Shown here piece by piece: positions 7,611 to 23,960 of a DNA stretch of 34,439 bases; positions within the stretch are counted from its first letter, which is position 1; each line of letters starts with the position of its first letter. Position numbers and translations under genes: made by a program. This DNA comes from Actinomycetota bacterium. Its GTDB lineage: Bacteria; Actinomycetota; Acidimicrobiia; Acidimicrobiales; Ilumatobacteraceae. The DNA is taken from contig JAPKZX010000026.1 in the NCBI GenBank assembly GCA_026393575.1, positions 1-34,439 on the forward strand, written 5' to 3'. The notes under the pieces were generated by a model. That model saw nothing but the letters and a program-made list of their open reading frames with translations, was not told the DNA's origin and made no database searches.

Positions 7611-7853
7611 CTAGTTCTCGTCGAGGTAACTGCGTAAACGATGGCTGTTATTGGGATGACGCATACGAGCGAGGGTCTTTTGCTCGATCTGGCGGATGCG
7701 CTCGCGAGTAACGCCCTCCTGCTTAGCCACATCATCGAGAGTCAATGGTTCGCCACTACTGATACCAAAACGCTTGTCCAAAATACGGCGATCTCTCTCT
7801 GGCAAATGTTCAAGTTCAAGTGAAATTGCAGCAATCAATTGGCGACGCTGCAC
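7611..7853 (-). CDS. rpoD: Primary sigma factor RpoD, C-terminal fragment (region 4), out of frame with the rest
   Basis: Encodes sigma region 4, which contacts the -35 element: LPERDRRILDKRFGI (4.1), the helix-turn-helix TLDDVAKQEGVTRERIRQIEQKTLARMRHP (4.2, in overlapping motifs) and the canonical LRSYLDEN end. Homology continues upstream of the GTG at 7853 to about 7922 in this frame, reading like the end of region 3.2 (DSATVGD and an acidic linker), where it meets a stop. It is displaced by +1 relative to the N-terminal fragment. About 53 residues expected between the two are missing, so this is one gene disrupted by a deletion rather than two genes. See the finding on this locus. Confidence 0.8.
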   Translation of the reverse strand: MQRRQLIAAISLELEHLPERDRRILDKRFGISSGEPLTLDDVAKQEGVTRERIRQIEQKTLARMRHPNNSHRLRSYLDEN

Positions 7854-7896
7854 GACGGCATCTGGCGACGCATCTTCGCTTTTGTCAGCAGCTCTA

Positions 7897-8649
7897 TCAC
7901 CAACGGTTGCTGAATCGACGGTTGATTAACTCCACCACATGACTTGGCACTCGAATGGTGCGGCCTTGGTCGGCCATTGCACGCATCATTGCCTGGCGTA
8001 TCCACCATGTTGCATATGTAGAAAACTTGAAACCTTTTTCCCAGTCGTATTTCTCGGCTGCGCGCATCAGACCGATATTGCCCTCTTGAACAAGATCCAT
8101 GAGTTGCAATTCGCGCCCATCATATTTTCGAGCGATTGAGACAACCAATCGAAGGTTTGACTCAATCAACTTATTAAATGCATCTTCACCTTCATGAATT
8201 TTCAGGCGTAGCTCGCGACGTTGAGTTGCCGATAAATCAGATTTCTCAAGAGCCACCTTGGCTTCTTGCATGTCCTTGATTGCTTTTCCGAGAGTTCGCT
8301 CACCTTCAGCATTCAACAAGTCGACTTGACCAATTTCCTGTAAGTACATACGGGTGGAGTCACCCGCATCAGCGCTGACAGCTTTGGTTGCAGTCGCCTT
8401 CTTGGGCGGAGCCACTCTTTCGATAGGTCCCGAGATGTCTGGCTCGACCGTGGCTATTGAGATATTGAGTTCTTTTAACACTGATTCAATCTGACGAAGC
8501 AGATCTGGATTTAGTTCCACACTTCTAAAGACGTGGGCCACTGTGTTGGGGTCTACCGTGCCCTCATCTGAGCGCGAAGCAATCAGCGTGGCCCATTCGG
8601 CCACATCTACGTCCGGGTGCGGAGGCGTGAGACGAAGCCGACGGGTCAT
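7897..8649 (-). CDS. rpoD: Primary sigma factor RpoD, N-terminal fragment (regions 1 and 2)
   Basis: 250 codons carrying a short region 1.1, a Lys/Ala/Pro-rich linker, region 1.2 ([20 protein letters not shown]) and complete region 2, with [24 protein letters not shown] and the -10-recognition helix [19 protein letters not shown] followed by [14 protein letters not shown]. After this point normal sigma-70 continues with region 3; here the frame runs through RRFSNRW to a TGA. The ATG overlaps the dnaG stop by four bases (ATGA at 8646-8649), the classic dnaG-rpoD operon, which argues that this is the housekeeping sigma factor. An organism could not live with this allele as its only copy, so sequence error, strain variant or a second copy must be considered. 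Confidence 0.85.
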
Positions 8650-11428: not shown

Positions 11429-12496
11429 CTATTTGGTCTTTGTCTTGGCAGTACCGATGACTGCCTGGGCAGCAGAGAGCCTCGCAATGGGCACTCGGTA
11501 CGGGGAGCAACTGACATAGTTCAGTCCCGCTCTATAGAACATGTCGATGGACTCTGGGTCGCCACCATGTTCACCACAGACTCCAAGCTTGAGTGAGCGC
11601 TTTACTTTGCGCCCGCGCTGGGCCGCCAAAAACACCAACTCACCCACACCGTTTTGGTCGATGGTCTCAAATGGGTTGCGCTTCAAAAGTCCTGCCTCTA
11701 GATATGCGGGCATCAGACGGCTCTCCACATCGTCACGACTGAATCCGAAAGTCATTTGAGTGAGGTCGTTCGTACCAAAGCTGAAGAAATCTGCGTACTC
11801 CGCTAACTCATCTGCACGCAGAGCTGCTCTCGGAGTTTCAATCATGGTGCCGATCGAAATCTTGGGGCGCTTCACTACCTTCTGACCCTTCTTTGCTTTC
11901 GGAACCGGCCTCGAATTGATGTCCGAAAGAACTTCATCCACCCAACTGCGTGCCAATGCGAGTTCCTCGCGGGTCACGGTTAGTGGAATCATGATTTCAA
12001 CAATGGGTTCATACCCTTTCGACGACACTTCGTCGGCTGCTTCCATGAGCGCACGCACCTGCATTGCATACAAACCAGGCTTCACGACACCAAGTCGTAC
12101 TCCGCGCGTACCAAGCATTGGGTTCACTTCAGCCCATTCATGCGCGGCCCTCAATAGATCTTCGTCTTCTCTAGACAAACCCTTTGTCGCCTTTTCAATC
12201 TCTAAATCATCAACGCGTGGCAGAAATTCGTGGAGAGGTGGATCGAGCAGTCGCACCGTGACTGGTAACCCCGACATCTCTTTCAGAATTGCCGCAAAGT
12301 CTTTCTTCTGTACTTTGCGCAACTCTTCAAACGCTGCTTGTTCTTCTTCCGGAGTACTCGCCAGAATCATGCGACGCACAACCGGCAAACGATCCGCCGC
12401 CAAGAACATGTGCTCTGTGCGACATAGTCCAATGCCTTCAGCACCTAACTCGCGCGCCTTACGTGCATCTTCATCGGTATCAGCATTCGCACGCAC
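11429..12496 (-). CDS. ppdK: Pyruvate phosphate dikinase, C-terminal fragment (PEP/pyruvate-binding domain)
   Basis: 355 codons covering the TIM-barrel domain. It opens RANADTDEDARKARELGAEGIGLCRTEHMF and carries VRLLDPPLHEFLP, GTRGVRLG, IMIPLTVTREEL, GTMIETPRAAL, FFSFGTNDLTQMT and the catalytic-Cys motif GVCGEHGGDPES. Homology extends upstream of GTG 12496 in this frame to about ILEWSDVVRKGKLA, after which the frame meets a stop. It is shifted +1 relative to the N-terminal fragment, with which it overlaps slightly in sequence. The domain itself is complete, so a two-subunit enzyme is conceivable, but a frameshifting lesion is the simpler reading. Confidence 0.85.
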   Translation of the reverse strand: MRANADTDEDARKARELGAEGIGLCRTEHMFLAADRLPVVRRMILASTPEEEQAAFEELRKVQKKDFAAILKEMSGLPVTVRLLDPPLHEFLPRVDDLEIEKATKGLSREDEDLLRAAHEWAEVNPMLGTRGVRLGVVKPGLYAMQVRALMEAADEVSSKGYEPIVEIMIPLTVTREELALARSWVDEVLSDINSRPVPKAKKGQKVVKRPKISIGTMIETPRAALRADELAEYADFFSFGTNDLTQMTFGFSRDDVESRLMPAYLEAGLLKRNPFETIDQNGVGELVFLAAQRGRKVKRSLKLGVCGEHGGDPESIDMFYRAGLNYVSCSPYRVPIARLSAAQAVIGTAKTKTK

Positions 12497-12521
12497 AGCA
12501 AGTTTGCCTTTACGAACGACA

Positions 12522-14093
12522 TCAGACCATTCCAGGATTGTGTGATGCAGTCAGGGTAAACTGACCAAGCATTACTTCACCAGAGGTCCCATCAAGCGAG
12601 AGCCAGTCGCCCTCGCGCACGACAACATCACCGACTGAAAATGATGCACCGTCAATCTTGACCGCATCTGCTCCCACAATTGCCGGTGTTCCCCACCCAC
12701 GTGCAACCACTGCGGCGTGACTAACTAGCCCACCACGCGATGTGAGAATTCCTTTAGCAATCATCATTCCGTGCACATCTTCGGGGCTCGTCTCAGAGCG
12801 CACCAAAATCACATCAAGACCCTTTTGTGCTGCTGATGCAGCATCGTCGGCCGTAAAGAACACTTGCCCGACGGCAGCACCTGGAGAAGCTGCAAGTCCT
12901 TTTGTAAGCGCAGGAATCTTCTTGGCAAATTGCGGGTGCAACACCTGATCAAGGTGGTCGGCTGCGACACGCATGATTGCTTCATTCTTGGAAATCTTCC
13001 AAGCAGAACGACCAGTGCCAGTAGGCGACACCATGTCGACTGCCATCTTTAATGCAGCAGCGCCGGTTCTTTTACCAACACGCGTCTGCAGCATCCACAG
13101 TTTTCCTTGCTCAATGGTGAACTCGGTGTCACACATATCTTTGTAGTGACGTTCAAGTCGGGCAAATATCCCCAGCAACTCAGCATGTATCTCTGGGAAT
13201 TTCCGCTTGAGCGCATTGAGATCTTCCGTATTACGAATACCCGCTACAACATCTTCACCTTGAGCGTTGACGAGAAAATCTCCGTATGGTTTGGCTTCAC
13301 CTGTTGCAGCGTTACGCGTAAAGCCGACTCCGGTACCTGAATTGTCGTCTCTGTTTCCAAACACCATGGCCTGCACGTTGACTGCCGTACCTAGTTCATG
13401 GCTGATTTTTTCGCGAACTCGATACGCAATTGCACGTGGACCATTCCATGAACGGAACACCGCTTCCACTGCACCACGCAACTGCTTCGTGGGATCTTGC
13501 GGAAATGGTTTTCCTGTTTGTTGAGCAATGGCCGTTTTGTACACCTGACACAGTTGCTTCAGGACTTCTGCTGGTATTTCTGCGTCATTTTGCACATTGG
13601 CATTCGACTTAGCTTTCTCAAGTTCATGTTCAAATACATCCCCATCAAGACCGAGAACAATGCGCCCATACATAGAGATAAAGCGCCGATAGGAGTCATA
13701 AGCGAATCTGTCATTTCCCGTAGACCGAGCCAGGCCCTCAACACTCTTGTCATTCAGCCCCAAGTTCAGAACCGTGTCCATCATTCCTGGCATTGAGAAC
13801 TTTGCGCCAGAACGCACAGAGACCAACAGCGGGTCGTGTGCATCCCCGAGTTTGCGGCCCATCTTTTTTTCAAGAGACGCCACCTGACGAGACATTTCAT
13901 CGTCAAGCGCTTTCGGCCACCCGCCGTGCATATATGCACGACACGCATCGGTACTAATGGTGAAACCATGAGGCACCGGCAGTTGCAACACGCTCATCAT
14001 TTCGGCGAGGTTTGCACCCTTGCCGCCCAACAAATCTTTCAACTCCATTGGCGGGCGACGATGCTTATGGTCGAAGGCGAAAACGTATGGCAC
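12522..14093 (-). CDS. ppdK: Pyruvate phosphate dikinase, N-terminal fragment (ATP-grasp and phosphohistidine domains)
   Basis: 523 codons. PPDK interconverts pyruvate + ATP + Pi with PEP + AMP + PPi. Present are the nucleotide-binding start LKDLLGGKGANLAEM, SVRSGAKFSMPGMMDTVLNLG, FGNRDDNSGTGVGFTRNA, LNALKRKFPEI and the swivelling-domain motif GGLVSHAAVVARGWGTP with the phosphorylated His. The frame ends in LTASHNPGMV just after GEVMLGQ, at the linker to the PEP-binding domain, where the family continues into a LxEW..R.....RANAD stretch. GTG 14093 is six bases after -10 box TAGACT. Together the fragments would make an enzyme of about 880 residues, the family's usual size. Confidence 0.88.
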   Translation of the reverse strand: MPYVFAFDHKHRRPPMELKDLLGGKGANLAEMMSVLQLPVPHGFTISTDACRAYMHGGWPKALDDEMSRQVASLEKKMGRKLGDAHDPLLVSVRSGAKFSMPGMMDTVLNLGLNDKSVEGLARSTGNDRFAYDSYRRFISMYGRIVLGLDGDVFEHELEKAKSNANVQNDAEIPAEVLKQLCQVYKTAIAQQTGKPFPQDPTKQLRGAVEAVFRSWNGPRAIAYRVREKISHELGTAVNVQAMVFGNRDDNSGTGVGFTRNAATGEAKPYGDFLVNAQGEDVVAGIRNTEDLNALKRKFPEIHAELLGIFARLERHYKDMCDTEFTIEQGKLWMLQTRVGKRTGAAALKMAVDMVSPTGTGRSAWKISKNEAIMRVAADHLDQVLHPQFAKKIPALTKGLAASPGAAVGQVFFTADDAASAAQKGLDVILVRSETSPEDVHGMMIAKGILTSRGGLVSHAAVVARGWGTPAIVGADAVKIDGASFSVGDVVVREGDWLSLDGTSGEVMLGQFTLTASHNPGMV

Positions 14094-21593: not shown

Positions 21594-22256
21594 CTATTTC
21601 TTCTTAGCTTTGGTTGGCATCAGCGAGGACGGGCAGATGTCTTCAAACTCGCAGCGGTCGCAGGCTGGCTTCTTGGCATCACACACGCGACGGCCATGCA
21701 AGATGAGTCGCAACCCAAAGCTTCCCCATTCCTCGGGAGGCAAGAAAGCATTCAATACTTTCTCCACCTTCACTGGATCTTCTTCCACTGTGAGACCAAG
21801 CCGGCGCGACAAGCGCCCCACGTGAGTGTCAACAGCAAGACCTGGAAGCCCAAACACCACACTGCGCAGAACATTGCCTGTCTTTCGACCTACACCGGGC
21901 AGTGTCACAAGATCTTCAAGGTCACTAGGTATCTCACCGTTGTATCGGTCCAACACATTTTGAGCCATACCAATGAGATTGCGCGCCTTCGTCTGAAAAA
22001 AGCCAGTGGAACGGATGATCTCTTCCAGTTCGGAGGGGTTTGCTGCCGCCAACGCGGTTGGAGTGGGATACTTCGCGAACAATTGTGGAGTAACCATGTT
22101 CACGCGAACATCAGTGCATTGCGCAGACAAGATGGTGGCTGCCAGTAACTCAAAAGGGTTCTTGTGCGTGAGTTCGCATTCAGCCTCGGGGTACAGAACA
22201 GCCAGTCTGGATGCGACCTCTTTGGCACGACCTGCTGGCGTTCTCGGCTTTCCCAT
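21594..22256 (-). CDS. nth: Endonuclease III (DNA glycosylase/AP lyase)
   Basis: 220 aa base-excision repair enzyme for oxidised pyrimidines. The helix-hairpin-helix LPGVGRKTG carries the catalytic Lys, AVDTHVGRL the catalytic Asp, and the C-terminal iron-sulfur loop has four Cys spaced C-x6-C-x2-C-x5-C (VCDAKKPACDRCEFEDIC). A Lys-rich tail follows. I chose ATG 22256: it is six bases after -10 box TACCTT and homology starts close behind; the longer start at 22289 would lie upstream of the inferred transcription start. It is divergent from mshD, with start codons only 23 bases apart. Confidence 0.95.
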   Translation of the reverse strand: MGKPRTPAGRAKEVASRLAVLYPEAECELTHKNPFELLAATILSAQCTDVRVNMVTPQLFAKYPTPTALAAANPSELEEIIRSTGFFQTKARNLIGMAQNVLDRYNGEIPSDLEDLVTLPGVGRKTGNVLRSVVFGLPGLAVDTHVGRLSRRLGLTVEEDPVKVEKVLNAFLPPEEWGSFGLRLILHGRRVCDAKKPACDRCEFEDICPSSLMPTKAKKK

Positions 22257-22262
22257 GGCACG

Positions 22263-22272
22263 AAGGTACCCT
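22263..22272. promoter_or_regulatory. Bidirectional promoter between nth and mshD
   Basis: AAGGTACCCT gives TACCTT on the minus strand, six bases before nth ATG 22256, and TACCCT on the plus strand, seven bases before mshD GTG 22280. They share TA at 22267-22268. Both transcripts would be leaderless. Motif and spacing only. Confidence 0.6.
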
Positions 22273-22279
22273 GACCGAC

Positions 22280-22918
22280 GTGCGATCACTCGAAATCAAG
22301 CGTCAAATGGACGCCACCAGCATGGATGAGGTCTCTGACCTCATCGCTGATGCATGGAGAGCCGATGGCGCACGCCCACTGAATGATCATTTGTGGCTAG
22401 ATCTTCGAGAGGGCGGCCGTACCGGCTTTGCCGGACTCATCGCGCGAGACGATGGCCATTCTCACATCGTTGGGTATTGCCAGATTTCCCGCGGAAATGA
22501 ATCGTGGTCACTCGACCTTATTGTTCACCCGCACCACCGTTATGACTCCATGGAGATCGCCCCCGACCTGCTGCGTGAAGCGCTTGACATCGTGGCCAAT
22601 GAAGGCGGAGGCCATGTGCACTGGTGGGTCTTTGAGCCAAACAACGTTCATCGTCAACTCGCCCACACAGCCAATCTTCACCCTGGGCGAAAGTTGTTGC
22701 AGATGCGTCGCGCACTACCACTCCCTCACGACGTGACTGCATCTATCGCATCCTTCACTACGGTGCCCTTTCGGCCCACCACCGACGAGGATGCTTGGCT
22801 TACAGTGAACAACGCAGCATTTGCACATCACCCCGAACAAGGCGGTTGGACACACGAGACAATTGCTCTACGTCAAAAAGAATCTTGGTTCGACCCGAAC
22901 GGCGACATCGCTGTATGA
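22280..22918 (+). CDS. mshD: Mycothiol synthase MshD, truncated (C-terminal domain missing)
   Basis: 212 codons. MshD acetylates Cys-GlcN-inositol, the last step of mycothiol synthesis, and consists of two GNAT domains. Visible here are the N-terminal domain (with LDLIVHPHHRYDSMEIAPDLL and LLQMRRALPLP) and the start of the second domain: FRPTTDEDAWLTVNNAAF, HHPEQGGWTHETI and ESWFDPNG. The frame stops four residues later. About 90 residues, including the acetyl-CoA-binding site of the catalytic C-terminal domain, are absent, and rlmN coding sequence follows at once. As written the product should be inactive. GTG 22280 lies seven bases after -10 box TACCCT. Confidence 0.85.
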   Translation: MRSLEIKRQMDATSMDEVSDLIADAWRADGARPLNDHLWLDLREGGRTGFAGLIARDDGHSHIVGYCQISRGNESWSLDLIVHPHHRYDSMEIAPDLLREALDIVANEGGGHVHWWVFEPNNVHRQLAHTANLHPGRKLLQMRRALPLPHDVTASIASFTTVPFRPTTDEDAWLTVNNAAFAHHPEQGGWTHETIALRQKESWFDPNGDIAV

Positions 22919-23960
22919 CCCAACACGTGAGGAGATCTCCGCCATTCTTGAAGGAGAGCCGTCGTATCGACTCAATCAATTGTGGAGTGGTCTGTACACA
23001 CACTTCAAGAAGCCTGCAGACATCTCCAATTTGCCTGCAGCATTGCGCACGAAGATTGATGCCGAACTACCTGAAAGCCTGATTGAAGTACAACGCTCTA
23101 CTTCTGAAGATGGCGACACTGTGAAGTTTTTGTGGCATCTCGTTGAGGGAAACCACCCCATTGAAACTGTCCTCATGTATTACGACGATCGCGCCACAGT
23201 CTGTGTCAGCACACAAGCAGGTTGCGCAATGGCGTGTGGATTCTGTGCAACCGGACAAGCCGGATTCAACCGTCACTTATCAATTGGCGAGATAGTAGAA
23301 CAGGTCATTCGGAGCGCACGCGAGGCGGCTACGAAAGATCGTCGCATCGACAACATTGTTTTCATGGGAATGGGTGAGCCACTTGCCAACGAACCAAACG
23401 TGTGGGGCGCTGTAGAACGCATTCACGCAGATATTGGAATCTCCGCACGGCACCTCACCATCTCAACTGTCGGAATTGTTCCTGGCATCCGCGCTTTGAC
23501 ACAACGCCCTCTCCCCGTCAACCTCGCAGTGTCCTTGCACGCGGCTCGCGACACGTTGCGAGACGAACTAGTACCGATCAACACTCGCTATCCCATTCAG
23601 ATGCTCATGGATACATGTCGTGATTACCTTTTTGAAAAGCGTCGTCGAGTGACCTTTGAATGGGCACTTATCGATTCAGTCAACGACACCGATCGTGATG
23701 CGCACGAATTGGCAGAACTGTGTTTGCAATTGTCTCCACCTGCACATGTGAATCTCATTCCACTCAACCCCACCCCAGGATGGCCCACCGTAGGAAGTTC
23801 ACCAGGGCGAGTGGCTGCATTCCAGCGACTACTTCGCGACTTAGGAGTGAACGCAACGACTCGTCAAAATCGAGGCACTGAAATTGCCGCAGCGTGTGGT
23901 CAATTGGCTGCTGGTCAACCAGTCTCCGTAGAGATGAAGAAGACGCGCCAACCGCGCTAA
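22821..23960 (+). CDS. rlmN: 23S rRNA (adenine2503-C2)-methyltransferase, start codon apparently lost
   Basis: Radical-SAM methyltransferase for A2503 of 23S rRNA (and some tRNAs). The N-terminal helical domain (EGEPSYRLNQLWSGLY), the [4Fe-4S] motif CAMACGFCATG, FMGMGEPLANEPNVW, STVGIVPGIR, SLHAARDTLRDELVPIN, VNLIPLNPTPG and the catalytic-Cys end ISAACGQ-like IAAACGQLA are intact. Family homology begins at YDPTREEIS (codon at 22914); the 31 codons before it, back to ATG 22821, are mshD sequence read in another frame. No ATG, GTG or TTG lies at the natural start, so the start was probably removed by the deletion that truncated mshD. The stop overlaps the convergent DUF6285 stop (CTAA, 23957-23960). 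Confidence 0.9.
   Translation: MHITPNKAVGHTRQLLYVKKNLGSTRTATSLYDPTREEISAILEGEPSYRLNQLWSGLYTHFKKPADISNLPAALRTKIDAELPESLIEVQRSTSEDGDTVKFLWHLVEGNHPIETVLMYYDDRATVCVSTQAGCAMACGFCATGQAGFNRHLSIGEIVEQVIRSAREAATKDRRIDNIVFMGMGEPLANEPNVWGAVERIHADIGISARHLTISTVGIVPGIRALTQRPLPVNLAVSLHAARDTLRDELVPINTRYPIQMLMDTCRDYLFEKRRRVTFEWALIDSVNDTDRDAHELAELCLQLSPPAHVNLIPLNPTPGWPTVGSSPGRVAAFQRLLRDLGVNATTRQNRGTEIAAACGQLAAGQPVSVEMKKTRQPR

Follow-up and report, generated by a model that had tools for sequence, protein, structure and literature searches.

A 304-bp loss at the mshD–rlmN boundary of a lake actinobacterial genome is probably an artefact of assembly

In the contig analysed here, mshD is broken early and the adjacent rlmN has no natural start codon, which raises the question of whether the cell has lost part of a mycothiol gene or the assembly has lost part of an ordinary gene pair. 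The window, that is, the whole stretch of DNA analysed (34,439 nucleotides), is contig C95 of a source genome that is 82% complete and comprises 129 contigs totalling 1.92 Mb, and its named relatives are chiefly freshwater metagenome-assembled genomes (MAGs) of the Ilumatobacteraceae and Acidimicrobiaceae. The closest relative, G028 (SYAZ01000046.1, locus L064), shares ~90% nucleotide identity with the window and has an unbroken pair. Judging from sequence comparison, we consider it probable that the mshD–rlmN junction arose when this genome was assembled. The features on which the argument turns are as follows.

22211–22918, forward strand: mshD remnant, with ~209 N-terminal MshD residues followed by DIAV and a stop, based on the open reading frame (ORF), the TIGR03448 match and alignments to G028 and to structures 2c27 and 1ozp.
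22902–22904, no strand: junction, where 305 bases of G028 are replaced by one C (22903), for a net loss of 304 bp, based on blastn to L002 and L064.
22904–23960, forward strand: body of rlmN, beginning at the G of the former ATG and encoding a near full-length RlmN with the CAMACGFC motif.
22911–22918, forward strand: CTGTATGA, an in-frame CTG in an 8-base overlap with the new mshD stop, which becomes a candidate for the rlmN start only on the assumption of a real junction.
7614–8649, reverse strand: RpoD-type sigma factor gene beside dnaG, in two frames, with a break near 7917 and a net 158-bp loss.
11429–14093, reverse strand: pyruvate phosphate dikinase gene (ppdK), in two ORFs (523 and 355 amino acids), with a break near 12543 and a 20-bp loss.

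The truncation of mshD and the missing rlmN start, both described in the first-pass annotation, are borne out by the ORFs, by the matches to TIGR03448 and TIGR00048 and by the alignment to G028. The mshD ORF (22211–22918) terminates in QKESWFDPNGDIAV followed by the stop, and its translation scores 130 bits against TIGR03448, below the curated cut-off of 163.1, covering model positions 3–200 of 294; the G028 protein scores 259.5 bits over positions 3–293. What remains is MshD cut after two thirds, with residues 210–310 (G028 numbering) and the stop codon lost; the earlier figure of about 90 missing residues was too low (~101 residues relative to G028, or 94 model positions). Neither the window mshD ORF nor the rest of the assembly contains the second GNAT domain and its acetyl-CoA loop; in G028 MshD the loop region reads VHPSAAGKGLGYKLT, which aligns to VDPAAQRRGLGQMLT in the solved MshD 2c27. 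The missing segment likewise has no match outside the locus anywhere in the assembly of the source genome. Relocation of the segment elsewhere in the genome was considered and rejected on this ground; the weak MshD matches on contigs C45 and C78 resemble weak C-terminal matches of other genomes in the genus.

Aligned to G028, the window matches up to 22902 and then again from 22904, with 305 G028 bases skipped. In G028, these bases encode MshD residues 210–310, the stop and the AT of the rlmN ATG, and the stop of mshD and the start of rlmN share the sequence ATGA; of that ATG, the window retains only the G. rlmN homology thus begins 12 bases before the new mshD stop (22904 versus the TGA at 22916–22918) rather than two bases before it, as had been proposed, and mshD is not fused into rlmN: the two reading frames differ, and we rejected an in-frame fusion on this ground. 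The single C at 22903 may be the third base of a Gly codon, which would make this a blunt 304-bp loss; the codon at this position is GGT in G028 and GGC, GGA, GGG or GGT in others. Near the two breakpoints, the longest shared word measures 7 nt and is not in register, and repeat collapse at the junction was rejected since the breakpoints have no longer word in common. A two-step deletion via the words GGCGACAT and GACAT is compatible with the junction and was also set aside, as it rests on one base, C 22903.

The mshD–rlmN spacing was compared in relatives, as suggested in the first-pass annotation. Among 31 other genomes of the genus, 27 have an RlmN match and 28 an MshD match above the family cut-off, and none of the 20 genus-mates with adjacent mshD and rlmN and both facing ends present shows the loss. 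The genes overlap by four bases in 11 of these pairs, have three bases between them in eight and are separated by a longer gap in G024; the overlap class of G015 was read by eye, and in G004 and G008 the 5' part of mshD is cut by the contig end. Intact pairs such as that of SYAZ01000046.1 match the window in gene order, frames and flanks and differ from it in having the 305 bases and the ATGA overlap. An apparent second natural truncation of mshD, in G034, was dismissed because the match stops at the contig end (position 7275 of 7275). In part of the genus (L012, L015, L016 and L017), rlmN starts with GTG, in a conserved four-base overlap with the mshD stop, followed by ATC. In members of the genus that are further removed (L079, L081 and L084; ~70% RlmN identity), other sequence separates rlmN from an mshD that lies ~1.8 kb upstream.

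The mshD–rlmN junction is one of several sharp losses in this assembly. Against 32 kb of the G028 contig, the window has two further ones, giving three sharp frame-breaking losses (mshD/rlmN, the dnaG-linked sigma factor and ppdK) in 27 kb aligned of a single contig. In the sigma factor gene, 160 bases of G028 are replaced by two at ~7917; pyruvate phosphate dikinase is one 894-aa ORF in G028. We then compared the window and 59 further source-genome stretches with 62 G028 stretches (799 kb versus 641 kb, 225.5 kb aligned), and found nine sharp losses of 50–305 bp in the source genome versus one (51 bp) in G028 (two-sided binomial, 0.02). This count excludes gaps of 15–20 bp as well as gene-sized or non-sharp differences (1089, 2832, -1507, -107, -1818 and -1160). 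The net sizes of the nine losses are 98, 104, 123, 102, 94, 158, 304, 52 and 63 bp. Every one of the nine falls within a G028 coding ORF, and the frame is shifted by six or seven of them, the range reflecting that 123, 102 and 63 are multiples of three, yet the 102-bp case shows a broken frame in the ORF test described below. Such coding placement and frame-shifting are as expected from random placement. The genes hit are those for a molybdopterin oxidoreductase, metH, an HtpX-like protease, the sigma factor, mshD/rlmN, dnaX, an acyl-CoA dehydrogenase, a 364-aa protein with one weak family match and a 215–219 aa ORF with no family match. Five of the losses, which split the molybdopterin oxidoreductase gene, metH, dnaX, the HtpX-like gene and an unnamed ORF, lie at these positions of the same assembly:

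L170 (G000:C79), 6271 and 13646: two sharp losses.
L265 (G000:C108), 14104: one sharp loss.
L267 (G000:C127 from 20001), 2337 and 10732: two sharp losses; two of the nine losses, both in L267, have overlapping near-repeat ends.

A reciprocal ORF test gave the same asymmetry, with sharp gaps splitting 8 of 160 matched G028 ORFs in the source assembly and none of 170 in the reverse direction (binomial 0.008, for 8/8). Only ORFs cut at a sharp gap were counted as split, namely 8 of the 16 flagged among the 160 and none of the 8 flagged among the 170. Left out were rows flagged STOP or inframe in both directions (6 G028 and 7 G000 ORFs), which were read as over-long start extensions without being checked case by case, together with L179_1325 (N-terminal mismatch only) and L188_15039 with its partner L251_7854 (flagged both ways). 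In the source genome, G028 metH and dnaX find matches only as two pieces or in two frames. Among 12 genus-mates searched, each of these genes is whole, runs off a contig end or, for dnaX of G003 and G012, matches as two segments in one open frame. A second RpoD-like gene, on C87, scores higher than the split sigma factor, and the dnaX break spares the ATPase part (the region of the dnaX_nterm model), so neither break proves lethality. In a small control on other pairs, 27 loci gave 351 possible pairs, of which 14 cleared the thresholds for identity and length; these yielded one sharp event in 62 kb aligned, which leaves the rates unseparated.

Could the junction nevertheless be biological? If it is, a very recent 304-bp deletion in a free-living lake actinobacterium would have truncated mshD and removed two bases of the rlmN start codon, abolishing MshD and leaving little mycothiol while the other steps of its synthesis were kept, and RlmN would need a weak start: either CTG 22911, reached by termination–reinitiation where it overlaps the new mshD stop, or one of two TTG codons (22863 and 22821). 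We regard this as unlikely. The clean junction and the otherwise well-aligned surroundings speak for it, as do the sharp coding deletions described in lake MAG populations (PMC9426551), where deletions of this kind are reported to be real and common, a point that counts against an artefact; translational coupling, moreover, is described as widely using stop–start overlaps (PMC6728339), and the four-base overlap is the commonest arrangement of the intact pairs above. Against this, a real deletion would have to be one of many in a genome with no other decay, all of them independent, very recent, frame-breaking and in conserved genes. Nor does the mshD remnant bear any sign of relaxed selection, although a very recent event would leave no such trace: dN/dS against G028 is 0.053 over 208 codons, within the genus range of intact copies, and that of rlmN is 0.014, both as in intact genus pairs at similar distance. 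These normal values are compatible both with no deletion and with one that happened very recently. The upstream pathway genes are also intact, with full-length matches to MshA-, MshC- and Mca/MshB-type genes in the source genome. A variant of this reading, in which some cells carry the deletion, most carry the intact pair and the assembly picked the minority allele, finds some encouragement in the similar-sized structural variants reported within lake MAG populations (PMC9426551); it is very improbable, since the deleted allele would have to have been chosen each time, at many loci.

The sharp losses affect all kinds of genes in a one-sided, random-like way and come with no other decay, which points to bases dropped in assembly. 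As many equally sharp losses lie in unrelated conserved genes and nearly all run in one direction, loss in assembly is the likelier origin, ahead of a deletion in the cell. The earlier proposal that one deletion accounts for both gene ends stands as to a single loss of ~300 bp (304 net), while its cellular origin is the less likely one. As we read it, the contig would skip 304 bases of an ordinary mshD–rlmN pair, in the way that other genes of the assembly appear to lack stretches of 20 to 305 bases. In the living cell, mshD would most likely be intact, with its stop at the rlmN start or overlapping it, as seen in the relatives, an arrangement in which rlmN translation could be coupled to mshD, and the reads would be expected to contradict the junction. 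The bases may have been lost where contigs were joined without a gap, through chimeric molecules or through low coverage. No N runs occur inside the unmasked sampled stretches, an absence that would be compatible with contigs having been joined and the gap between them left out. Since the sides of the junction share no word longer than 7 nt, it is not explicable by plain k-mer or repeat collapse, and an unusual joining step must be assumed. Assembly errors are described as inflating pseudogene counts (Cooley and Wright 2024, PMC11017572). As in that work, genes here look broken in one assembly and are whole in close relatives; there the errors were ascribed to assembler, platform and coverage and concern frameshifts and internal stops in general, whereas here they are sharp losses of 20–305 bp, recognized by alignment to G028.

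The ORF containing rlmN (22821–23960) scores 344.7 bits against the RlmN model TIGR00048 (cut-off 290) over positions 5–346 of 355, and its translation has the radical SAM cysteine motif CAMACGFC. No ATG, GTG or TTG stands at the natural start, where the ATG of G028 is reduced to its G. The only in-frame candidates upstream or nearby are TTG 22821, TTG 22863 and CTG 22911; the CTG had been named as a candidate earlier and is in frame as described, TTG 22863 is an addition, and the codon at 22821 had been taken for an ATG. From CTG 22911, RlmN would be four N-terminal residues shorter. These residues are variable across the genus and precede the region aligned to Escherichia coli structures, although the best structure match (6fz6) is aligned from residue 3.

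Gene-loss claims drawn from this assembly, such as one for mycothiol, would probably be wrong, and an automatic count of pseudogenes would be misled, since sharp gaps break about 8 in 160 ORFs of this genome. Were the deletion true, a lineage that otherwise keeps mshD would contain a natural mutant of it. The cell would then resemble the Mycobacterium smegmatis mshD knockout (PMC3907381), with MshD inactive and earlier steps intact; that mutant is, unlike the window, laboratory-made and had its thiols measured. It is reported to retain 1–3% of its mycothiol, plus succinyl- and formyl-mycothiol, so even a real loss of MshD need not remove all such thiols. The MshA-, MshC- and Mca/MshB-type genes of the source genome score under the curated cut-offs, as do those of the other genus genomes searched, and are in this respect nothing special to the window. 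One gene, at G000:C71:31422-32294, is the best match to both the MshB and the Mca models, with no strong separate MshB match, and the same holds in the other genus genomes searched.
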